The position numbers and the translations under genes are program-made. Below the pieces are notes generated by a model. The model made no database searches and was not told the origin of the DNA. It was given only the letters and a program-made list of their open reading frames with translations. From Ignavibacteria bacterium (GTDB taxonomy: Bacteria > Bacteroidota > Ignavibacteria > UBA10030), in contig VGWB01000011.1 of NCBI GenBank assembly GCA_016873755.1, forward strand, positions 1-38,779: 38,779 nt of DNA, read 5' to 3'. Positions 8,537 to 19,098 of this stretch are shown in pieces (the stretch's first letter is position 1; each line of letters begins with the position of its first letter).

Positions 8537-9784
8537 TTACTCGTATCGAAGTGATTCCACCGGATCGACACTAGCGGCTTTGCGGGCAGGGAAGAAGCCG
8601 GCGAGCAAGCCGATAGTTGTGAGGATGCCGGCTGTCATCAGCATGGTGGTAAGGGAAAGAACGGGCCTGCCGAGGAATTGCATGGCGTTCATCTCGTCTC
8701 CTGCGGGAATCATCCGCACAGCAGTGACCACGCCGTACGAGAACAGCAAACCGATGCCGCCGCCGACGAAGGCGAGAAGGAGCGCTTCGAAGATGAACTG
8801 CCCGAGTATGTAGTTCCGCCGCGCTCCGACGGCCATTTTGATACCGATCTCACGCGTGCGCTCCTTGACGACGACGTACATCACGTTCGCTACGCCGACG
8901 CCGGCGATGAGGAGCGTAAGGAAGCCAACGGAGAACATGAAAATGGACACGCCAATGCCGACCTTTCGGCTAATCTTCTCGGCCTCAATGAAGTCCCAGA
9001 TGCCCAACGCGCGTTCATCCTCTGGGTCAAACTGATACTTCCGCCCAAGCACTCGGTACAACTCGCTCTTCACACGCTCCTGCTGTGAAGGGTCGCTTGG
9101 GTGCACGACAAGAGTGTTCACATAGATGTTGCCATAGGTTGTGCGGAAGGTTGTATAGGGCATGATGGCCCGGCGCACGTCAGGGCCGTTATTCATCGCG
9201 GTTTGGATCTTCTTCTGCATCACGCCGACCATCGTGAACGGCACACCGTCAACCAGAATGGACTTTCCGATCGGGTCTTCGTCCTTAAAAATGTCCTTGG
9301 CAATCTCCTCCCCCAGGAAAAGCACTCGTCGCTGCTCCTCAACATCGACCGCGTTCAGAAACCGTCCGCCGCCGGCAGGATACATCCGTCGCATTTCCTC
9401 GAAAAGGGGGTTGACGCCTTCACATTCCGTTGTCACCGAGAACTTGCCATACATAAGCTGGACGTTCTTGCGGTACTGCGGGGAGATCATGTCGATCGCC
9501 GGGATAACCTGCTGCAGCAGCGTGGCGTCCTCCTCCGTTAGCCTGACCCGGCGCCCTTTGGGCAAACCCTGGTACGTGAGACCGGTCTCCATGCCGTACA
9601 CGACCATGATCCGGTTGCCCGCGTTCATCATCCCCTTCATCATCTGGTTTCCCAGTCCCTCGCCGAACGAGAGGAGAAGAACAACCGCGACGGTTCCCCA
9701 GGTGATCGCGACCAGCGTCAGGATCGCCCGGGTGCGGTGAGCCCGAAGATCATGAACGAAGTCCCTAAGAAGTTCGCGCCACAT
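8537..9784 (-). CDS. MacB/FtsX-type ABC transporter permease (second of tandem pair)
   Basis: A 415-residue integral membrane subunit with the MacB layout. There is one N-terminal transmembrane helix (RAILTLVAITWGTVAVVLLLSFGEG), a periplasmic core domain of about 200 residues, then three C-terminal helices. These include the conserved stretch GVANVMYVVVKERTREIGIKMAVGA, the coupling-helix region that contacts an ATPase. The family exports lipoproteins, peptides or macrolides with an ATPase and an adaptor. The start at the ATG at 9784 is preferred; the longer frame to 9832 translates an inverted repeat. It is a clear paralogue of the preceding permease. No ATPase gene lies in this unit. Confidence 0.88.
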   Translation of the reverse strand: MWRELLRDFVHDLRAHRTRAILTLVAITWGTVAVVLLLSFGEGLGNQMMKGMMNAGNRIMVVYGMETGLTYQGLPKGRRVRLTEEDATLLQQVIPAIDMISPQYRKNVQLMYGKFSVTTECEGVNPLFEEMRRMYPAGGGRFLNAVDVEEQRRVLFLGEEIAKDIFKDEDPIGKSILVDGVPFTMVGVMQKKIQTAMNNGPDVRRAIMPYTTFRTTYGNIYVNTLVVHPSDPSQQERVKSELYRVLGRKYQFDPEDERALGIWDFIEAEKISRKVGIGVSIFMFSVGFLTLLIAGVGVANVMYVVVKERTREIGIKMAVGARRNYILGQFIFEALLLAFVGGGIGLLFSYGVVTAVRMIPAGDEMNAMQFLGRPVLSLTTMLMTAGILTTIGLLAGFFPARKAASVDPVESLRYE

Positions 9785-9803
9785 AGTGATCCATCGTTCA
9801 TCT

Positions 9804-9848
9804 ATTGCCGATTGCCAATTTCCAATTCCCAATTGGAAATCGGCAATC
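9804..9848. repeat. Heptamer-phased inverted repeat between the two permease genes
   Basis: Six consecutive 7-base units of the type ATTGCCA or its complement (ATTGCCG, ATTGCCA, ATTTCCA, ATTCCCA, ATTGGAA, ATCGGCA) form a palindrome. The arms 9810-9827 and 9831-9848 pair over 17 of 18 positions around a CCC loop. It sits in the 76-base gap between two permease genes read leftwards, where it could form a strong mRNA hairpin. It resembles a dispersed intergenic palindrome rather than a classical terminator, because no T run follows it on either strand. Confidence 0.8.
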
Positions 9849-9860
9849 TCTTCGCCTTAC

Positions 9861-11093
9861 CTATGTTCTCAAACATTCTACTACATCCAGGTTTGCCGCG
9901 CGGCGGGCGGGCATTAATCCTGCCAACAGGCCGATGATACCGAGTATGGAGACGGTTGCCACGACAACCGAAAGGGAAATTTCGGGTGTGCCGACATATT
10001 CTTTGATGGGGAGGAGCTGCATGACGGCGACAATCCCCACGGCGATCATGAACCCAATCGCTGAACCGAGTCCGATGATGAAGAATGTCTCCATGAAGAA
10101 TTGGAGCATGATGTTCGATTTCTTTGCACCGACCGCTCGTTTGACGCCGATCTCTTTGATCCGTTCCTGCACGACGATGAACATGATGTTCGCAACGCCG
10201 ACGCCGGCCACGCCGAGCGTGAAACTTCCGATCAATCCCATGAAGATGTTGAAGCCGAGGAACAGGTAAAGCATGAACTTATCGAAGTTCGAAGTGTCCC
10301 AGATCCAGACGGCGTCCTTATCGGTTGGATCGAACTTGTACTTCTTTCCGAGGACCTGTCGCACTTGCTCGACGACCGTCTCGGAATTCATTGGATCATC
10401 GACCTGGAAGATGATGTTGTTGAGATAAATGGTCCCGTACACCGAGCCATACGTGGTCGCTGGGATGAAGATCCTGTCCTGATCCCGGGCGTTGTACGAC
10501 GAGCTCTGTGTCTTCTTCTGCATCACGCCGACGACCTGAAACGGCACCTGGCCAACGTAGATGATTTTTCCGACAGCGTCTCCCTCACCAAACAGAAACT
10601 CCTTCACCTTGTTTCCGATCACCACGACGCGTCGCCGGTGCTTCATATCGAGGTCATTGATGAACCGGCCGCCGGGCTCTGGAATGATGTTCCGCATCTC
10701 GGCATAGATCGGATAGATGCCCGACACCAGAGGGGTGAGGATGTTCTCCCCAACGCGGGTTGGCACGCGGCGTGCAAATTCTGGACTCACAGCCTTCATC
10801 CCCGGTACCCGGGAGGCAAGCAGGGTTGCATCGTCTTCGATGAACGTCATCCGGCGCCCGATGCCGAATCCCTCCCACGGCTTGGTCGTCTTGCCGGGGA
10901 ACATTATGGCAATGTGCTCACCAATACCATGCATGTTGATGGAGGTCTGCCGCTGAAAGCCGACGCCGAACGCGATCAGGACGACGATGCTCACCGTCCC
11001 CCAGATGATGCCAAACGTCGTGAGGAACGCTCGCAGCTTCTGAGCCTTGAGGTCGAGGTAGAATTCCTGGATAATGGTTTTGAAATGATTCAT
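9861..11093 (-). CDS. MacB/FtsX-type ABC transporter permease (first of tandem pair)
   Basis: A 410-residue permease with the same layout as its downstream neighbour: an N-terminal helix (RAFLTTFGIIWGTVSIVVLIAFGVG), a large periplasmic core with GGRFINDLDMKHRRRVVVIG, and three C-terminal helices containing VGVANIMFIVVQERIKEIGVKRAVGA. The ATG at 11093 begins the conserved part. A longer frame to 11192 is not supported by coding character, although no clear ribosome site precedes 11093. It follows the adaptor gene by 100 bases. Two distinct permeases suggest a heterodimeric exporter rather than the MacB homodimer; its ATPase must be encoded elsewhere. Confidence 0.88.
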   Translation of the reverse strand: MNHFKTIIQEFYLDLKAQKLRAFLTTFGIIWGTVSIVVLIAFGVGFQRQTSINMHGIGEHIAIMFPGKTTKPWEGFGIGRRMTFIEDDATLLASRVPGMKAVSPEFARRVPTRVGENILTPLVSGIYPIYAEMRNIIPEPGGRFINDLDMKHRRRVVVIGNKVKEFLFGEGDAVGKIIYVGQVPFQVVGVMQKKTQSSSYNARDQDRIFIPATTYGSVYGTIYLNNIIFQVDDPMNSETVVEQVRQVLGKKYKFDPTDKDAVWIWDTSNFDKFMLYLFLGFNIFMGLIGSFTLGVAGVGVANIMFIVVQERIKEIGVKRAVGAKKSNIMLQFFMETFFIIGLGSAIGFMIAVGIVAVMQLLPIKEYVGTPEISLSVVVATVSILGIIGLLAGLMPARRAANLDVVECLRT

Positions 11094-11193
11094 CGTCGTG
11101 AGATGCGAGACGATTGCCGACCGTTCTCCTGGTTTGTAAACACCGAATTCCTTCCGTTCACTTCTCCAATGCATCCAACTACCACCTACCACA

Positions 11194-12285
11194 TCAATCT
11201 ATCTTCTTGACAGGCTTCTCGTAGACCTCGTCCCCCTGCTTGAGCCCGCTCTTCACCTCGATGCTGATGGCGTCGCTGAGGCCCGTCTTGATGAGGCGTT
11301 CTTCAGACTTGTCCGGCCCAAGGGCGAGTTTCACAAACGCCGAGTCGTTCCGGAAGGTCACCACCCGTTCGGGGATGATCAACACGCTGTCCTTTCGCTG
11401 GATGATGATGTGCGCGTTAGCGGAATAGCCGGCCCGGAGCGTTGCGCTGCGGGCTCCAGGAATGAGGATCTCGATTGGGAAGACCGTCGCGTTTTCCTTC
11501 TTCTCAGCTTTAAGCCAGATCTTTCGGAGAATTCCTTTCACGGTGTCCGTTGGGAGAGCACCGACTTTGATTTCGACGTCCATCCCTTCCTTCATCTTCC
11601 CAACGTCGATTTCGTCAACCGTGCCCTTGAACAACAGCCGCTGCATGTTTGCCATCTTCATGAGCACCGTCCCCTCCATGAACGAGGTCTGGGGCGTCAC
11701 GGGATCGCCCACCTCGATCGCACGGTTCAACACGAAACCGTCGATCGGCGCCTTGACGATGGATTCGATCTCGGTCTCACCAATCTTTACCTTCCCGCTT
11801 TCGAGCAGGGCGAGCTTCTCGTTGGCAATCTTGAGCCGCAGCTCTGCTTCGTCATACCGTTTCTGGAAGTCTTCAAACTCCTTGTCCGAGATCAGCTTGT
11901 TCTTGATCAGGATCTCCTGGCGTGAGCGGTCCTTCTGCAAGTTGTCAACGTCAACCTGCGCGAGCTCGACCTGACGTTTTGCATCCGCCAACTCGAGTGG
12001 GGCCGGATCCGGCTTCACCTCCAGCAAGGGCTGTCCCGCCTTCACATACTCGCCGACATCGACAAGGATTCGTTTCACGACACCCGACACCTTGGACTTG
12101 ACCGAAATCTCAATCTCAGGCTCGATTGTCCCGACGGCAAGTGCCTTGTCGATAATCGTTCCCTTCTTCACGGTAACTTTCGGCAGCTGCTCGTCGCTCG
12201 AGTTGCTTGAGTTCCCGATAAACAGGACGGCAGCAACGACGACAGGGACAATGACGAATGCAGAGATGATGATCTTCTTTTTCAT
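11194..12285 (-). CDS. HlyD/MacA-type efflux periplasmic adaptor
   Basis: A 363-residue membrane-fusion protein. It has an N-terminal anchor (MKKKIIISAFVIVPVVVAAVLFIG), a first lipoyl half (VSGVVKRILVDVGEYVKAGQPLLEV), and a helical hairpin rich in K/E/Q of about 75 residues (LADAKRQVELAQVDVDNLQK onwards). The second lipoyl half (IVKAPIDGFVLNRAIEVGDPV) and beta-barrel and membrane-proximal domains follow, ending IPERVVTFRNDSAFVKLALG. The ATG at 12285 has GAGG six bases upstream. It is the first gene of an adaptor-permease-permease operon and links the exporter across the periplasm. A decayed copy of its 5' end lies at 16140-16330. Confidence 0.9.
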   Translation of the reverse strand: MKKKIIISAFVIVPVVVAAVLFIGNSSNSSDEQLPKVTVKKGTIIDKALAVGTIEPEIEISVKSKVSGVVKRILVDVGEYVKAGQPLLEVKPDPAPLELADAKRQVELAQVDVDNLQKDRSRQEILIKNKLISDKEFEDFQKRYDEAELRLKIANEKLALLESGKVKIGETEIESIVKAPIDGFVLNRAIEVGDPVTPQTSFMEGTVLMKMANMQRLLFKGTVDEIDVGKMKEGMDVEIKVGALPTDTVKGILRKIWLKAEKKENATVFPIEILIPGARSATLRAGYSANAHIIIQRKDSVLIIPERVVTFRNDSAFVKLALGPDKSEERLIKTGLSDAISIEVKSGLKQGDEVYEKPVKKID

Positions 12286-12749
12286 ACCAAACCTCACCGG
12301 AAGTGGTTTCTCGAGGGGAGCCCGGAATGCGTTCCTGCCCTAAAACATACGCCAGATACGGCCAAATGTTACGAATTGGGGCGAAACGCGGGAATGACTC
12401 TCGGGGAGCACACAGTGAACGTTAGACTTGTAGAAACGCCGAAAGGTTGCAGCAGGAAGGTCTGACGCCATTATCCGGGCGCGAGGGATGGAATTCCCCG
12501 GACAAAACGGGTGATCGTCTCGTAGTAGTGATCGCCGCCGGCGAAGAATGTATCGTTATGGTCGGCGTTGGGAATCTCGCAGAATTGCTTCGGCTCATTC
12601 GCAGCGTGAACCAATTCGCGACCGAGCTGGGTCGGGATGATCGAATCACGATTGTCGTGGATGAAACGAATCGGAACGTTGACCGTTTCGATCTTCTCAA
12701 TGGAGTTAAGGCTTGTGTGAAGTACGAGGAACACGGAGAGAAAGGGGCG
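12120..12749. repeat. Direct repeat, left copy (adaptor 5' end, spacer, hydrolase 3' fragment)
   Basis: This segment aligns in the same orientation with about 16145-16740. The match covers the first 55 or so codons of the adaptor gene, the spacer upstream of it (for example GGGAAT-ACTC near 12390 and near 16379, then CGCC--AGGT-GCAGC), and the last 90 codons of a hydrolase gene. The spacer of the right copy is about 55 bases shorter before the GGGAAT block. The two copies flank the TonB-receptor module. Boundaries are approximate. Confidence 0.75.
12471..12749 (-). pseudogene. Truncated alpha/beta hydrolase (3' fragment)
   Basis: The last about 92 codons of an alpha/beta hydrolase are open and end in TAA at 12473-12471. 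They align with the C-terminus of the intact hydrolase at 16458-17321: 62 of 86 residues are identical by hand count, including NSIEKI, DSIIP, AANEPK, ADHNDTF and TITRFVRGI. The acid and histidine of the triad are retained, but the nucleophile (GTSLGG), the oxyanion loop and the membrane anchor are absent. The match stops at the PFL equivalent of residue 196, close to 12749, just before the end of the TonB receptor gene. It has no plausible ribosome site and is very probably not functional. Confidence 0.8.
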
Positions 12750-12770
12750 ATTCCTTTTTGACCGGATCGC

Positions 12771-15029
12771 TTAGAAGACTAGTTTGTACAACAATTTGAG
12801 ATTTCTCCCCGGCTCGGGCATAATGGATTTGACGCGGGAGAGGTGGACACGATATTCGGTGTTCAGCACGTTCTCGGCAGTCAGTACAAATGTATGAAAG
12901 ACCGCTCCAGTCCCGACCTGGTACTGTGCAATCCCGTCGATGACGGTGTAGCCTGCCGTCGGTTGCTCAAACTGATCGATCCGATTCTGGGCTGCAGCCA
13001 TTCTCGCGACGACCCCGGCCATGAACGTGCTCGTCGAATAACGGAGATCAATTTTTGCTCCGAGCGGTGGCATCATCGGCAGCGGTGACTGACTTTCCTT
13101 CAACGATCCGCGGACGTAGTTGAGCGAGGCGCCAGCCACAAAAGAACCGACCACCCGCGCCTCAGCCGAGAGTTCCACTCCGCTCATCGCCGCTCCCAGG
13201 CCGGTGAATCGGTATATCGGCAGGAGGGTCCTGAAATTGATTTGACCGGAATTGCGCGGGAAGATGTAGCCCTGAAGATCGTTGTGGAATACAGTAACCT
13301 GAGAAAGCGCATCGTGGCCGGTGTATCGCAAGAAGACTTCGAGGCCGAGACCTCGCTCAAGATCCAGCTCAGGATTTCCTACTTCGAAAGAATACGCGGC
13401 AAGGTGTGGTCCTTCCGAATACAATTCCTCTACAGAGGGGGGGCGGATGGACCGCGTGAAGGTGATGCCCGCGAAGAGGCTTGACCTCAGGTGGAACACG
13501 CCGGCAAGAGATCCTGAGAGGTCGCTGAACCTGCGACTCCGAATCAGGCCTATCCGCTTCGACTCGAATTCCTCCTCAGGGTGGACAAGCCGGGTGTCGG
13601 CGCGGAGTGCGATCTTGAGCGACAGCAGGCCAAGGTCGGCCTCCTGCAAGAGAAACGCAGCAAGATTCTGTTCCCGCGTCGGAGGCGTGAACGAGAATCC
13701 GCCCGATGCAAAGTCCCTGTATTCCCCGGAGATTCCGGCGAAACCACCCGAAAAGAAACCCCAAGGTCTGGTCTGTGCGATGACTTCGCCGCTGTACGTC
13801 AAGACCCCAAACTCGATGCCGAGAACTCCCGTTGCCTCAAGCTCCCTGTGGTAATAATCCGTGAGCGCGAATTCCGCCTCCAGGAGGCGAAACGGCGAGG
13901 AGGACACAAGCACCTCTGCTTTCGCACGCAAATGTGCTCGTTCAAGCTCGATCTTGACACCATTCGGATGGGCCCCGACGAACCCCCCGGGAATTCCATA
14001 CTGCGATCGGTAGATCCCAGCAGCAAGCCCTAAGTGTCCCCAGTCGTCGAAGCGCGAAGCGCCCAGCGATCCGGCAAGATTCCGGTAATACGTATTGCGG
14101 AGAACTCCATTCGGGACGCTGATGTCGGTCGCATTCCTCATACTCCCATCGGCCCTCAGCACTATCGCCCCGAGAGGAACGGAGACTGCCCCCCCTCCGG
14201 CCAGCCCCCCGTTGACCGTTTCGCCATGAACCATGAGGTTGCCGTGAACATGATGGATCGGTTCTGACGGAATCTGCCCGCGCACGACATTGATCGTCCC
14301 TACCAGTGCATTCGGTCCGTATCGCAACGCAGCTGGGCCGCGACTGATCTCAACCCGCTCAGCCGTCAACGGATCGACGACGACTGCATGATCGGGTGCC
14401 GTCGCCGAAATGTCCCCCGTCCTTCCGCCGTCCTCGAGGATCAGGAGCCGGTCTCCCCCTAAACCCCTAATGACCGGCCGCGCAGGTGCCGGTCCCATTG
14501 TCCGCTGCGATATGCCCGACTCTTTGCTCAACGTTTCTGCCAGCGTTCTCCCCAGCTGTTGCTGAAGCTGCTTGCCGGTGATGATCTCGGTTGGCTTGAC
14601 GGAAGATGCTTTGCCGTTGGCGACACCCAGGACAAGGACAGTCTCGGTCGATAGAGGGCTGCTCTTGAGTTCGAGGGTGACGATCACGGTCTCTCGCTCT
14701 GCCACCGTGATCCTGCGAATCAGACTTTCGTAGCCGAGCCGAAATGTTTTGAGCGAATGGGTTCCTGGCGGGACATTGTGAAAGTGGAATGTTCCGTCTT
14801 CATGAGCAGTGACAGCTTTGTTTGTTTCCAACAGAAGAACGGGCGTCCACCCGAGCGGCTCCTTTGTCTCGATATCAACGACCTTTCCAAGAATGACACC
14901 GCTCTTCTGTTCCTCAATCGCGGAACGTTCCTCTTTACCCATGCGCGCTTGCGCAAGGAGCGTCACGAAGAAGACAGCCGTCGCAACGAGAACCGTCCGC
15001 TCATGGTATGATAACGCACTTTTCATCAT
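12771..15029 (-). CDS. ZnuD-like TonB-dependent outer-membrane receptor
   Basis: A 752-residue receptor. After a signal sequence (residues about 1-28) comes a carboxypeptidase-regulatory-like domain (GVILGKVVDIETKEPLG to about 120). The plug follows (RTLAETLSKESGISQRTMGPAPARPVIRGL, then DGGRTGDISATAPDHAVVVDP), then a 22-strand-type barrel ending in phenylalanine. The segments SVEELYSEGPHLAAYSFEVGNPELDLE and ENVLNTEYRVHLSRVKSIMPEPGRN are typical of the zinc receptor ZnuD group, so zinc or another metal is the likely ligand; this is inference. The ATG overlaps the TGA of the preceding lipoprotein gene (ATGATGA type), indicating translational coupling. The module is flanked by direct repeats. 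Confidence 0.88.
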   Translation of the reverse strand: MMKSALSYHERTVLVATAVFFVTLLAQARMGKEERSAIEEQKSGVILGKVVDIETKEPLGWTPVLLLETNKAVTAHEDGTFHFHNVPPGTHSLKTFRLGYESLIRRITVAERETVIVTLELKSSPLSTETVLVLGVANGKASSVKPTEIITGKQLQQQLGRTLAETLSKESGISQRTMGPAPARPVIRGLGGDRLLILEDGGRTGDISATAPDHAVVVDPLTAERVEISRGPAALRYGPNALVGTINVVRGQIPSEPIHHVHGNLMVHGETVNGGLAGGGAVSVPLGAIVLRADGSMRNATDISVPNGVLRNTYYRNLAGSLGASRFDDWGHLGLAAGIYRSQYGIPGGFVGAHPNGVKIELERAHLRAKAEVLVSSSPFRLLEAEFALTDYYHRELEATGVLGIEFGVLTYSGEVIAQTRPWGFFSGGFAGISGEYRDFASGGFSFTPPTREQNLAAFLLQEADLGLLSLKIALRADTRLVHPEEEFESKRIGLIRSRRFSDLSGSLAGVFHLRSSLFAGITFTRSIRPPSVEELYSEGPHLAAYSFEVGNPELDLERGLGLEVFLRYTGHDALSQVTVFHNDLQGYIFPRNSGQINFRTLLPIYRFTGLGAAMSGVELSAEARVVGSFVAGASLNYVRGSLKESQSPLPMMPPLGAKIDLRYSTSTFMAGVVARMAAAQNRIDQFEQPTAGYTVIDGIAQYQVGTGAVFHTFVLTAENVLNTEYRVHLSRVKSIMPEPGRNLKLLYKLVF

Positions 15030-15478
15030 GGTGTCACAGTAACAGGAATAGGCGGCGTGCGGAAATCGACATGACCCGCGTGGAGGATGCGAAGCTCTAT
15101 CGTCGTGTCACCGATCTTCTTCCCCAAGACGTGCATTTCCCACTTTGCACCCTCATCCCGCTCAACCTCAGCAATAGAAGCATCTGCAAATTCCCATCCG
15201 AGATCGAATTCAGACCCTTCCGGGCGAAACCGGTTACCACCTGCATCAAGGAAGTAGATGTCGATGTGATCGGTCTCCGTCCCGACTTTCACCGTAATCT
15301 TTCCCGTGACCTTCCCCTCCTTGACAGTGACGAAGTCAACACCGTTCATCCGAAGCACCAGACCCTCCGCTTCAGCGTGATCGGGGTCGGGTTCAACGCT
15401 CTTCTGACAGCCATTGATGACGAAGATTGCTAACAGAGTCGTGAAGAATGCAAAAGAGTAGTTCTTAAGGGATTTCAT
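15026..15478 (-). CDS. Lipoprotein coupled to the ZnuD-like receptor
   Basis: A 150-residue lipoprotein with lipobox VINGC (Cys24). It has a His/Asp-containing linker (EPDPDHAEAEGLVL) and a beta-rich body with two similar segments (VTGKITVKVGTETDHIDIYFLD and TTIELRILHAGHVDF), suggesting an Ig-like or two-lobed beta-sandwich. The family is not recognised by name. The ATG at 15478 is supported by AAAGGAGAAACCC. Its stop codon overlaps the start of the receptor gene, so the two are made together. It may present metal to the receptor or bind it on the periplasmic side; that role is inference from position and the histidines. Confidence 0.75.
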   Translation of the reverse strand: MKSLKNYSFAFFTTLLAIFVINGCQKSVEPDPDHAEAEGLVLRMNGVDFVTVKEGKVTGKITVKVGTETDHIDIYFLDAGGNRFRPEGSEFDLGWEFADASIAEVERDEGAKWEMHVLGKKIGDTTIELRILHAGHVDFRTPPIPVTVTP

Positions 15479-15633
15479 GGGTTTCTCCTTTATCATAGGG
15501 ATTCACGGGGCGATGCCGAGCCGTGAAATGACGAGGATATCACGGAAATCGGTACGACCGGTCGAGACGCGAAATCACTTCATTGCGTCCTGCGGACGCA
15601 TATCAGCAGAACAGCGAGAGTGGTAACCGGTGA

Positions 15634-15960
15634 TTAGGAGAAAGGGGGAGCTCGGGGGGGTGCACTCTCCAGCCGGCTGAACGACAACCAGCCCACCTCC
15701 GGGGAAAGAATAGTGCGGGATTCCTGGGGAGTGCTCTCCGAGGGGACCTGAACAGGTAGCGAGAGAATATGGTTCGAAGCCTGGAGACACAATCCACATT
15801 CCGTGCTAAACGAACGGCTGGAGTGTTGTTCAGAACCGTCAGATAGTACGTCAGATCTGCCGACCCCGTGGTAATGATGAGGGTACGTCACGACGAACGT
15901 ACTCGTCGCAAACAACAGTAACATCAATATCGAGATTGGCCCGCGTTTTATGGAGAGCAT
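15634..15960 (-). CDS. Small His/Cys-rich membrane or exported protein
   Basis: A 108-residue protein starting at the ATG at 15960. It has a hydrophobic segment (ISILMLLLFATSTFVV), then a histidine cluster (YPHHYHG, residues 27-32), another histidine (SEQH), and a CxxC (TECGLC, Cys55 and Cys58). This layout resembles the DUF2946-type small proteins found beside metal receptors. The remainder is Pro/Ser-rich and low in complexity. No good ribosome site is visible, and an alternative TTG start lies at 15993. It heads the lipoprotein-receptor module with a 155-base gap. Coding status is likely but not certain. Confidence 0.5.
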   Translation of the reverse strand: MLSIKRGPISILMLLLFATSTFVVTYPHHYHGVGRSDVLSDGSEQHSSRSFSTECGLCLQASNHILSLPVQVPSESTPQESRTILSPEVGWLSFSRLESAPPRAPPFS

Positions 15961-16139
15961 ACAACAATTTACCGATGTATTGCGAATCTGCAAAGCAAAA
16001 GAATTAACGAAATCAGAATGCCGAAAGTTCCCACTCGGCTTGAATACGGAGTCCGCAGGTCCGATAAAGACAGGGTATCAGCAAAGCAGCGTCAGCCCCG
16101 CTATTTATTGTGCCTTGCCGTTTCCAGGAAGTCGAATTC

Positions 16140-16330
16140 TGTGCTATCCCGCAGCGAGTCTGAGCTTTGATCGTGTTCATAACCAGGGGCTTGTCGATGG
16201 CGGTGCCTTTCGTAAGCCCCACCCTCGGAAGCTGTTCCTCGTTGGAATTGCCTGGATCCCCGATGAACGCGACCGCCTAAACACCGGCAAGGCCGACCGC
16301 AAATGCAGAGGTGATGATCTTCTTTTTCAT
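16140..16330 (-). pseudogene. Decayed 5' fragment of an efflux adaptor gene
   Basis: Read from an ATG at 16330, the minus strand gives MKKKIITSAFAVGLAGV, then an in-frame TAG (16279-16277), then AVAFIGDPGNSNEEQLPRV and LTKGTAIDKPLV. This aligns codon by codon with the intact adaptor at 12285 (MKKKIIISAFVIV..., FIGNSSNSSDEQLPKV, KKGTIIDKAL). About 30 of 55 residues match by hand. Similarity fades near 16140, so the lipoyl, hairpin and barrel parts are absent. The stop codon and truncation make it a remnant. Confidence 0.8.
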
Positions 16331-16740
16331 GTAGAACATTGCCGGACTGGAAAAAGGGTTGCGTATTGAGTCTGAAACTGGGAATCACTCGTCGGGGACG
16401 CACAGCAGCATTCTGACTTGGCAAGGCGCCAGGAGGTCGCAGCGGGACGGTTTGAGGCTACCGCTTCGGGGCGAGAGAGACAATCCCGCGCACAAAGCGG
16501 GTAATGGTGTCGTAATAGCGATCGCCGCCGATGAGGAACGTGTCGTTATGATCGGCGTGGGGGATTTCGTAGAATTCCTTCGGTTCGTTCGCCGCCCGGA
16601 AGAGTTTACGTCCAAGCCCGATCGGGATGATTGAATCCTGGTTGCCATGGATCGAGAGAATCGGAGCCTTGACCTTCTGGATCTTCTCAATGGAGTTGAA
16701 GCTGGTTCGGAGTACAAGGAAGACGGGAAGAAATGGGTAC
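16145..16740. repeat. Direct repeat, right copy (adaptor 5' fragment, spacer, hydrolase 3' part)
   Basis: Partner of the repeat at 12120-12749, same orientation. Here the hydrolase portion is part of an intact gene and the adaptor portion is the decayed half, the reverse of the left copy. Boundaries are approximate and set by where hand alignment fails. Confidence 0.75.
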
Positions 16741-17321
16741 AGGGTGCGTGCAACGTCTCTCGCCGACGAAAAGGTGGATTCCAGGATCAATCCGGCGACT
16801 TGTCGATGCTGGGCGACATCAACAGCCACTGCGCCACCAAGGCTCGTTCCCCAGAGTATGATACGCGTCCGATCGACTTCGGGCACGGTGAGGGCGAAGT
16901 CAAATGCTGCCCGACCATCTTTGTAAACGCCCTCCTCATCAGGAGATCCCTCGCTCCGCCCGTATCCCCGATAGTCGTACATCAGCACATTGAATCCGCG
17001 ACGCTGCAGCTCTCTGATGATCGGAATGCGATGGGAGATGTTTCCGGCATTTCCATGGGCAATGACAAGCGTCGCGATCGCTGAGTCGGCCAACGCAAAC
17101 CACGCATGGATCTTGACGCCATCCTCCGCTGTAATCCAACAATCTCGAAGGTTCGGAACAAAGCGGGCATCCTCATAGATGCCGCGTGGATACTCATAGG
17201 GGAAGTAGATGAATTTCTCTTCGAAGATCATGAAGATGAGTGTCCAGAACAGAAGAGCAACAAGTCCTGCGATGGCAATTCTGCGAAGCACGACGAGGAG
17301 ACGCTTCATGAGCTTGTTCAT
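16458..17321 (-). CDS. Membrane-anchored alpha/beta hydrolase (S33/ABHD13-like)
   Basis: A 287-residue hydrolase with one N-terminal transmembrane anchor (residues about 11-33) and the typical core. The oxyanion loop is HGNAGN (89-94), the nucleophile elbow GTSLGG with Ser160, the acid Asp229 in GNQDSIIP, and the histidine His258 in HADHNDTF. It resembles the BEM46/ABHD13 and YfhR group, whose natural substrates are largely unknown. The ATG at 17321 lacks a clear ribosome site, and a second ATG lies four codons in. A truncated paralogue lies at 12471-12749. Upstream of the adaptor fragment, its position suggests it once preceded the exporter genes in one operon. Confidence 0.85.
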   Translation of the reverse strand: MNKLMKRLLVVLRRIAIAGLVALLFWTLIFMIFEEKFIYFPYEYPRGIYEDARFVPNLRDCWITAEDGVKIHAWFALADSAIATLVIAHGNAGNISHRIPIIRELQRRGFNVLMYDYRGYGRSEGSPDEEGVYKDGRAAFDFALTVPEVDRTRIILWGTSLGGAVAVDVAQHRQVAGLILESTFSSARDVARTLYPFLPVFLVLRTSFNSIEKIQKVKAPILSIHGNQDSIIPIGLGRKLFRAANEPKEFYEIPHADHNDTFLIGGDRYYDTITRFVRGIVSLAPKR

Positions 17322-17376: not shown

Positions 17377-18801
17377 TCACTCGATATGGTACTCGATCAT
17401 GCGCTCAATGGCCGCGCGGCAGACAGCGCAGAAATCAACCAGGCTAAGAGAAAACATCCGGCAGTCAAGTGCTGGCCGGTAGAGCCCCGTGCTCATGTAG
17501 CCGGCGCCCTCAAACGCGCCGACCTTGCCGGCGTACCGGCCCTTTTTCAGAATGTCTTGCGCCTGCCGATACAGTGGTTCCCGCTTCTCGTAATAGTCGG
17601 ACGCCAATCGGTCAAGCTTCGCCCGCGCGCGTTCAAGGCTGTCATACTTGGCTTTCTCCCACGGGGTTGGCAGAGGCGTCCCTTTCTCCACCAGATCTCT
17701 CCATTTGAGCGTGGTCGGATCGCTCAACGCTGTCAGGTTGGGTTCCCAGGGCTCAACGCCTTGCGAATAGAAGTCGACGTAGGACACCTGCGACGTGTAG
17801 TACTCGTCACCGAGGCCGGCGAACGCGTGTCCAAGCTCATGGACGTAGACGTAATCCATCTGCCACTCCATGCCCTTTGTATCCGTCTGCGTGAAGCACG
17901 TGGTGTACTGGTTATACATTCCCCCGCCTCCGTACCGATTGTCATTCAAAAGAATCGTGATGACATCATAGGGGACGGCCGAGGCGATGTCTCGAATGAT
18001 CCGGTTTTCCTCTGTCAACACATACCGAGTGCTTCCGAAGGTATTGTACATAGTGCCAAGAGCATTCTCCTTCCATTCGTTCTTATCGGGCTTGTCGATG
18101 CCGGATTCACGTGACTCGACTTCAATGGTCCAGACGTTGAAGTCGTCCCTTCGCTCCTTAAACGGGCTTGTTCCGAACAGCACGTCGGTGAAATGCTTGA
18201 CGTCCTCACGAAACTTCGCCATGTCGGCTCTCGCGTATCCGTCTGGCACAATGAGGAGGTCCACCTTGTTTTGCGGCGCGCCGTTATCGATGAACTTTGC
18301 CGACTTGTATGGATGCGTTCGTTGTTGACGGTTGACCTGTGTCGGATCGTTCGGATCGATGACCGTGGAGAAGATCTCGTGGAAGATCATACGTTTGTCA
18401 CGACGAGAAAGGGTCACCTGGATCTTGCTCTTCGGGAACGGGAACCGCACGCTCTCGTGAAATGTACGATACACCCCGGCTCCGGCTTCCTCCGTCGTCT
18501 GCCACTCATTGAACATCGTGGAGTACCCTCGGGAGTAGATCGGCAGTGAGCTCGCGACATCGTAAACGCGCACCATGTATTCCCCGAGGTTCAGCGGATC
18601 GAGGAGGTGCGTTCTGCTTCCCGGCCACACACCCTCGTCATAGACTTTGTCGAGAGCAACGGTCTCCTGGCCCTTCGTGCCCGTGTGATAGAAATCGACC
18701 CGCATCGTCTTATCGACGAAGAACTTGTCAAACGACTGACTGAATAAAACAGCGCAGAGGGATGCGCACAGCAAAAGTGAGTAGATGATCAGTTTTCTCA
18801 T
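17377..18801 (-). CDS. Secreted M64-family metallopeptidase
   Basis: A 474-residue peptidase related to the IgA peptidase M64 family. The signal peptide is MRKLIIYSLLLCASLCAVLFS. An N-terminal beta domain (residues about 25-160, with MRVDFYHTGTKGQE) is followed by the catalytic domain beginning KVDLLIVPDGYA. The zinc site is HELGHAFAGLGDEY, with His321, Glu322 and His325 and the downstream GLGDEY that supplies the third ligand. CRMFSLSLVDFCAVC near the C-terminus carries three cysteines, as often in the family. The ATG at 18801 is chosen because it begins the signal peptide; the longer frame to 18840 adds nothing recognisable. The target is unknown; in environmental bacteria it is presumably extracellular protein. 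Confidence 0.9.
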   Translation of the reverse strand: MRKLIIYSLLLCASLCAVLFSQSFDKFFVDKTMRVDFYHTGTKGQETVALDKVYDEGVWPGSRTHLLDPLNLGEYMVRVYDVASSLPIYSRGYSTMFNEWQTTEEAGAGVYRTFHESVRFPFPKSKIQVTLSRRDKRMIFHEIFSTVIDPNDPTQVNRQQRTHPYKSAKFIDNGAPQNKVDLLIVPDGYARADMAKFREDVKHFTDVLFGTSPFKERRDDFNVWTIEVESRESGIDKPDKNEWKENALGTMYNTFGSTRYVLTEENRIIRDIASAVPYDVITILLNDNRYGGGGMYNQYTTCFTQTDTKGMEWQMDYVYVHELGHAFAGLGDEYYTSQVSYVDFYSQGVEPWEPNLTALSDPTTLKWRDLVEKGTPLPTPWEKAKYDSLERARAKLDRLASDYYEKREPLYRQAQDILKKGRYAGKVGAFEGAGYMSTGLYRPALDCRMFSLSLVDFCAVCRAAIERMIEYHIE

Positions 18802-19098
18802 GGCTAGTATCCCAGAAAATGAGTAGGCAAACGCGAACAATTGGTCCGGTTGAAACCTAACGCCCTGCGCGCTGACAACGGGACGCGAGGTTGGCCAAAA
18901 GGAAGAAAGACGTCAGCCCGAAGGAGTGGAGCGACTCTAGAATGTGCCTTCTTCAATCAGATTCCCCGCCCGGAAGAGAGCGGGACTCGGAATGACTGTT
19001 TGGTCAGCCTCGGACATCTCGCCTGGTCATCGTGCGATGCCCCCTCTGCTCGGAGGAGAAGACCGGGGTGAGGACAAGAGCACGACCGACCGCGCGCA
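18802..19098. other. Intergenic region with a repeat-like, non-coding segment
   Basis: 297 bases separate the M64 gene from the cyclophilin gene. No convincing gene is seen. The segment around 18915-18998 holds short palindromes (GAGTGGAGCGACTC at 18925-18938) and GATTCCCCGCCCGG---CGGGACTCGGAATGAC (18960-18996). This is the kind of text seen in dispersed intergenic repeats of many bacterial genomes. No second copy is visible in this window. Confidence 0.4.

Follow-up and report, generated by a model that had tools for sequence, protein, structure and literature searches.

A metal-uptake cassette seated between two diverged copies of a hydrolase-adaptor junction in an Ignavibacteria genome

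In the analysed stretch of DNA from an Ignavibacteria bacterium, 38,779 nucleotides in length (hereafter the window), a three-gene metal-uptake cassette, probably for copper, lies between two same-orientation copies of the junction between an alpha/beta hydrolase gene and a membrane-fusion adaptor gene. The locus is a genuine, clearly delimited scar and a variant of the insertions that have long flanking repeats, except that here the repeats predate the insertion. We propose, with a probability of about one half, that two versions of the junction, already diverged from each other, were joined around a foreign cassette, the second version having been imported from a related species rather than left by a tandem duplication. 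These two sources of the second version are inseparable here, and tandem duplication is nearly as likely.

Architecture of the locus and its uninterrupted form in relatives

On the minus strand, the genes run in the order M64 peptidase, whole hydrolase (hydR), adaptor 5' stub, CruR-like ORF, lipoprotein and TonB receptor, followed by a hydrolase 3' stub (hydL), the whole adaptor and two MacB/FtsX permeases (Table 1), with the whole hydrolase on the right side and the whole adaptor on the left side of the cassette. The two repeats form a single colinear alignment of 612 columns, which covers the spacer, at 65.5% identity (E 1e-63). This pair is the top self-match of the window; its ungapped core (12478-12747 against 16468-16737) reaches 75% identity, and the longest identical run shared by both repeats is 19 bases. 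The initial annotation had described two same-orientation copies in this order, each with one whole and one cut gene, and had put the protein identity of the repeats at roughly 70%; the alignment bears out the arrangement, and the hydrolase parts share 72.5% identity over 91 residues. The frame of hydL is open and begins at about codon 193, no more than 23 bases from the stop codon of the receptor, and one proline and one glycine that are invariant among 19 compared relatives are replaced in it. The right adaptor, previously read as cut and as carrying a stop codon, is indeed a pseudogene, in which protein similarity reaches to about adaptor codon 78, at position 16097 (tblastn to adaptor residues 1-78, 41%, 7e-12).

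The outer genes resemble those of four genomes of genus g10, with 62-68% identity between hydR and its syntenic orthologues and 80-84% for the whole adaptor. A Pfam search found no ABC ATPase domain in either permease. Permeases 1 and 2 (8537-11192) share 39% identity with each other, pointing to an ancient duplication, and short, near-palindromic repeats lie between their genes (9804-9848).

Table 1. Features of the locus, by position in the window
Feature	Position	Strand	Evidence or remark
MacB_PCD/FtsX permease 2	8537..9832	-	Pfam; 76-80% identity to g10 orthologues
MacB_PCD/FtsX permease 1	9861..11192	-	Pfam; 76-79% identity to g10 orthologues
Membrane-fusion (HlyD/MacA-type) adaptor, whole copy	11194..12285	-	TIGR01730, 2e-42, above cut-off
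Left (downstream) repeat: hydrolase 3' stub, spacer, adaptor 5' part	12140..12747	-	Pairwise alignment
Promoter-like motif 2, intact: GTAAC-N16-CGTAT	12347..12372	-	Also in relatives' spacers
Promoter-like motif 1, intact: GCAACC-N17-GTCTAA	12422..12450	-	Shared, with equal spacing, by the spacers of 6 of 7 relatives
Hydrolase 3' stub (hydL)	12474..12748	-	Frame open; first ~192 codons missing
TonB-dependent receptor, CarboxypepD_reg N-domain, intact	12771..15029	-	PF00593, PF07715, PF13715
Cassette lipoprotein, no assigned function	15026..15496	-	Adjoins receptor in phylum loci
CruR-like / DUF2946-like leader ORF	15634..15993	-	CGLC, 44 residues, RAPPFS at C-terminus
Adaptor 5' stub, pseudogene	16097..16330	-	TAG at codon 18 (translation)
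Right (upstream) repeat: hydrolase 3' end, spacer, adaptor 5' stub	16185..16737	-	Pairwise alignment
Promoter-like motif 1, decayed copy: GCGACC-N17-GTCAGA	16411..16440	-	Alignment with seven relatives
Alpha/beta hydrolase, whole copy (hydR)	16458..17321	-	PF12146, E 1e-19
IgA peptidase M64, conserved upstream neighbour of hydrolase	17377..18840	-	PF09471, E 9e-87

We then searched 60 relatives, all from outside the source genome's own genus, the closest named records being Ignavibacteriales/Bacteroidetes metagenome-assembled genomes. As a result, an adjacent, receptor-free hydrolase-adaptor-permease-permease operon was found in at least eight of them (L032, L033, L035, L039, L041, L043, L044 and L049), and in L032, L035 and L039 the hydrolase is itself preceded by the M64 gene. 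The predicted ancestral operon without the receptor thus exists in relatives. The earlier proposal that recombination between the repeats would restore this operon is topologically correct, but homologous recombination would today be very unlikely to release the cassette, the longest identical run being only 19 bases.

Other variants of the locus were seen in the same search. In L036 (9146-10276), L038 (10581-11714) and L046 (6118-7223), the hydrolase-adaptor boundary is occupied by another gene, about 270 codons long and with many 'LETYKG/FETYKG' strand repeats, and the boundary has therefore admitted other genes. In L050 (2294-5084), the same locus has decayed independently, with only a 3' remnant of the hydrolase behind the M64 gene and with the adaptor broken into two frames.

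Divergence and reciprocal decay of the two copies

The differences between hydL and hydR number 12, 14 and 41 at codon positions 1, 2 and 3, with a dN/dS of 0.14-0.17. In simulations under a simple model, with 267 and 150 bases, a left copy that had been fully neutral since the duplication failed to reproduce the observed pattern in any of 300 runs at either omega value, and the best fit was obtained when about 10-30% of the hydL branch was neutral. For the adaptor stub, which is shorter, a neutral share of about 20-100% was compatible with the data, full neutrality of this stub alone not being rejected (P 0.08-0.10). The third-position excess, together with the rejection of full neutrality, shows that the copies first diverged as working genes, and the truncation of hydL at its 5' end came only after this divergence.

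The divergence between the left and right copies amounts to 0.46 at third positions and 0.146 at first and second positions, which is within the range of same-genus pairs (third over first plus second positions, 0.40/0.140 in genus g3 and 0.51-0.66/0.15-0.24 in genus g10). Furthermore, hydL and hydR are sisters with a UFBoot value of 100, the hydL branch (0.31) being 3.3 times longer than that of hydR (0.095). This genus-level divergence, taken with the sister relation, indicates that two working versions from within this genus-level lineage were joined, and the copies had reached about the divergence of congeneric species before the cassette lay between them. Codon-position statistics thus date the recombination scar, in that they place the divergence of the copies before the insertion.

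Decay was counted over the alignment columns at which six or more of seven relatives agree. In the hydrolase part, 12 such columns were kept in the right copy only and 3 in the left copy only; for the spacer plus adaptor, the corresponding numbers were 34 for the left copy alone and 4 for the right copy alone, a reciprocal contrast with a Fisher p of 2e-6 in a test that takes alignment columns as independent. These mirror-image losses indicate that each outer gene retained what it requires, and reciprocal decay thereby tells the half of each copy that is still needed from the half that is not. The comparison also exposed two conserved promoter-like motifs ahead of the adaptor operon, of which motif 2 has been deleted from the right repeat. 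Both are candidate promoters of the adaptor operon, and we take them to resemble ECF sigma factor promoters. A genome-wide regulon for motif 1 was considered and dropped, because its exact matches in the genome number one, as do those of the reversed control pattern.

The cassette genes, their likely metal and their origin

What had been annotated as a ZnuD-like receptor module holds two genes besides the receptor, at 15026-15496 and 15634-15993. Together they make a three-gene cassette, in which a CruR-like leader ORF with CxxC...RAPP comes first and a lipoprotein lies between it and the TonB receptor. The receptor, whose last residue is an aromatic F, has the ZnuD model NF038289 as its best NCBIfam match, yet at 195.6 bits it falls far under the family cut-off of 950; the assignment as a receptor holds, whereas that to ZnuD is not supported. 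Copper-responsive CruR leader ORFs carry a CxxC and a C-terminal RAPP about 45 residues apart, plus or minus one or two (PMC9426467), and the 44 residues between the two motifs of the leader ORF agree with this spacing. The ORF, for which an alternative ATG start is possible at 15960, also heads a TonB-receptor operon as CruR does, with a gap of 137 bases to the lipoprotein gene. Since its score against Pfam DUF2946 (PF11162) is a near miss, 20.1 bits under a cut-off of 23.7, we call it CruR-like and not a DUF2946 member.

A similar order is found in bp2923-bfrG-bp2921 of Bordetella pertussis, where the leading ORF carries both a CxxC and a C-terminal RAPP and is followed by a long gap and a TonB receptor (PMC9426467). 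Unlike in that operon, an extra lipoprotein lies here between leader and receptor, and in contrast to the CruR-led operon of B. pertussis the leader stays just under the DUF2946 cut-off. Because the leader ORF is CruR-like, copper is better supported than zinc, and the cassette, judged by its sequence, is probably specific for copper. The likely metal is thereby corrected, and the CxxC...RAPP leader arrangement is extended to cassettes of the Bacteroidota group. No riboswitch or other Rfam RNA was found in the cassette.

A CruR-like ORF accompanies the receptor at 25 of the 29 related loci, and the lipoprotein adjoins the receptor in all 12 phylum loci of one survey and in 26 of 29 of another. 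Elsewhere, the receptor is accompanied by the lipoprotein and a small CxxC...RAPP ORF, and never by the hydrolase or the adaptor. Across the phylum, 89 of 385 genomes have the receptor at E<=1e-120, the best matches (43-49%) lying in other classes; within the order, a threshold of E<=1e-90 finds it in 2 of 98 genomes. Since the cassette is conserved phylum-wide but nearly absent in the order, a horizontal acquisition is indicated, and the cassette most likely came from outside the order as a defined unit. The GC content is even across the module and the joins, so that composition lends no support to a recent transfer; it is the patchy distribution that does. Carriage of the receptor by a phage or plasmid found no support, as viral contigs gave no match and plasmids gave matches of only about 30%; no integrase was seen in the cassette, and no tRNA attachment site was found within the window. 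At two loci (L111 and L112, genomes G433 and G395), the receptor of the cassette is present as a neighbouring pair.

How the diverged junctions may have come to flank the cassette

The starting point would have been the ancestral M64-hydrolase-adaptor-permease-permease locus, as it stands in relatives, with the three-gene cassette entering at the hydrolase-adaptor boundary. DNA of a related species, carrying the cassette beside that species' own version of the junction, would have recombined with the native locus. If circular, it would have entered by a single crossover; if linear, one of its ends would have joined by homology and the other illegitimately. The outer genes would have stayed complete, the right hydrolase with its own 3' end and the left adaptor with its own upstream promoter-like motifs, and both inner stubs would have lost selection and decayed reciprocally. 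We infer this import route. The integration of a circle by a single crossover, as first suggested, would require that the junction on the circle had diverged beforehand, and a homologous crossover between repeats that are 65-75% identical, and whose identical runs do not exceed 19 bases, would be inefficient unless the identity was formerly higher.

The second copy may instead stem from an old tandem duplication in the lineage, a serious though less favoured possibility, in which two complete units diverged and the cassette then replaced the stretch that runs from inside the first adaptor to inside the second hydrolase. This would account for the divergence before insertion and for the sister relation of hydL and hydR; that the two are each other's closest known relatives counts against import, being equally expected from duplication within the lineage. 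Tandem duplication would also give two sharp inner edges without any homologous recombination of diverged sequences. A second close adaptor copy, however, was found in none of the 60 relatives searched, which weighs against a tandem duplication in the family and counts for import, and no remnant of a second permease pair was found between the repeats. Moreover, long tandem repeats are usually lost or homogenised. The earlier suggestion that the copies came from different lineages fits better than a duplication made at insertion, and ancient tandem duplication fits equally.

It is improbable that the locus is an assembly chimera of this metagenome-assembled genome, with a false join, within the repeats or close to them, between contigs from two related species. 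The genome consists of 376 contigs with an estimated contamination of 2.48%, its closest named relatives are themselves metagenome-assembled genomes, and the divergence between left and right is at species level. A chimera would nevertheless leave the decay of both inner stubs unexplained (the in-frame stop, the lost motifs and the lost invariant residues of hydL), the longest shared run of 19 bases is too short to mislead most assembly graphs, and the base composition is even across the joins. Least probable of all is the junction-duplicating insertion of the initial annotation, with copies identical at entry and decaying neutrally thereafter, which fits the anatomy exactly and follows a pattern described for restriction-modification genes of Helicobacter pylori (Nobusato et al. 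2000, as cited in PMC1643837) but is contradicted by the codon-position pattern of two working genes and by the simulations, and could be rescued only if the truncated hydL product had stayed under protein-level selection.

As far as insertion with long target duplication is outlined in papers citing its description (Nobusato et al. 2000, in PMC1643837 and PMC3154945), it shares with this locus a foreign block between several-hundred-base repeats of the interrupted locus, whole outer genes and an uninterrupted locus in relatives. By the same outline, it differs in that the repeats here diverged before truncation and were not identical at insertion, and in that the cargo is a metal-uptake cassette in place of a restriction-modification system. 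The codon-position test may be used on other cases assigned to this class, and would separate true duplications from joined diverged copies.

Under import, the favoured reading, one may go further and speculate, against the odds, that the diverged orthologous junctions of related species serve as landing sites, by which a cassette is inserted between operon genes with neither of them broken. If this were true, each side would donate the half that it keeps, and 'homeologous junction' scars would mark a general, so far undescribed route of cassette entry.

Two further processes show partial likeness. Homology-facilitated illegitimate recombination with displaced 3' gene remnants has been discussed for the T6SS and Rhs loci of Vibrio (PMC5361080), where a module likewise enters beside a homologous anchor with displaced parts of old genes downstream; here, in contrast, a copy of the junction lies on both sides, and the displaced part is the dead 3' end of the hydrolase. 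In Streptococcus pneumoniae, merodiploids formed by transformation carry duplications of about 100-900 kb of native DNA (PMC3784515). There too, partly homologous incoming DNA leads to a duplicated stretch, whereas the stretch found here measures about 0.6 kb and has diverged.
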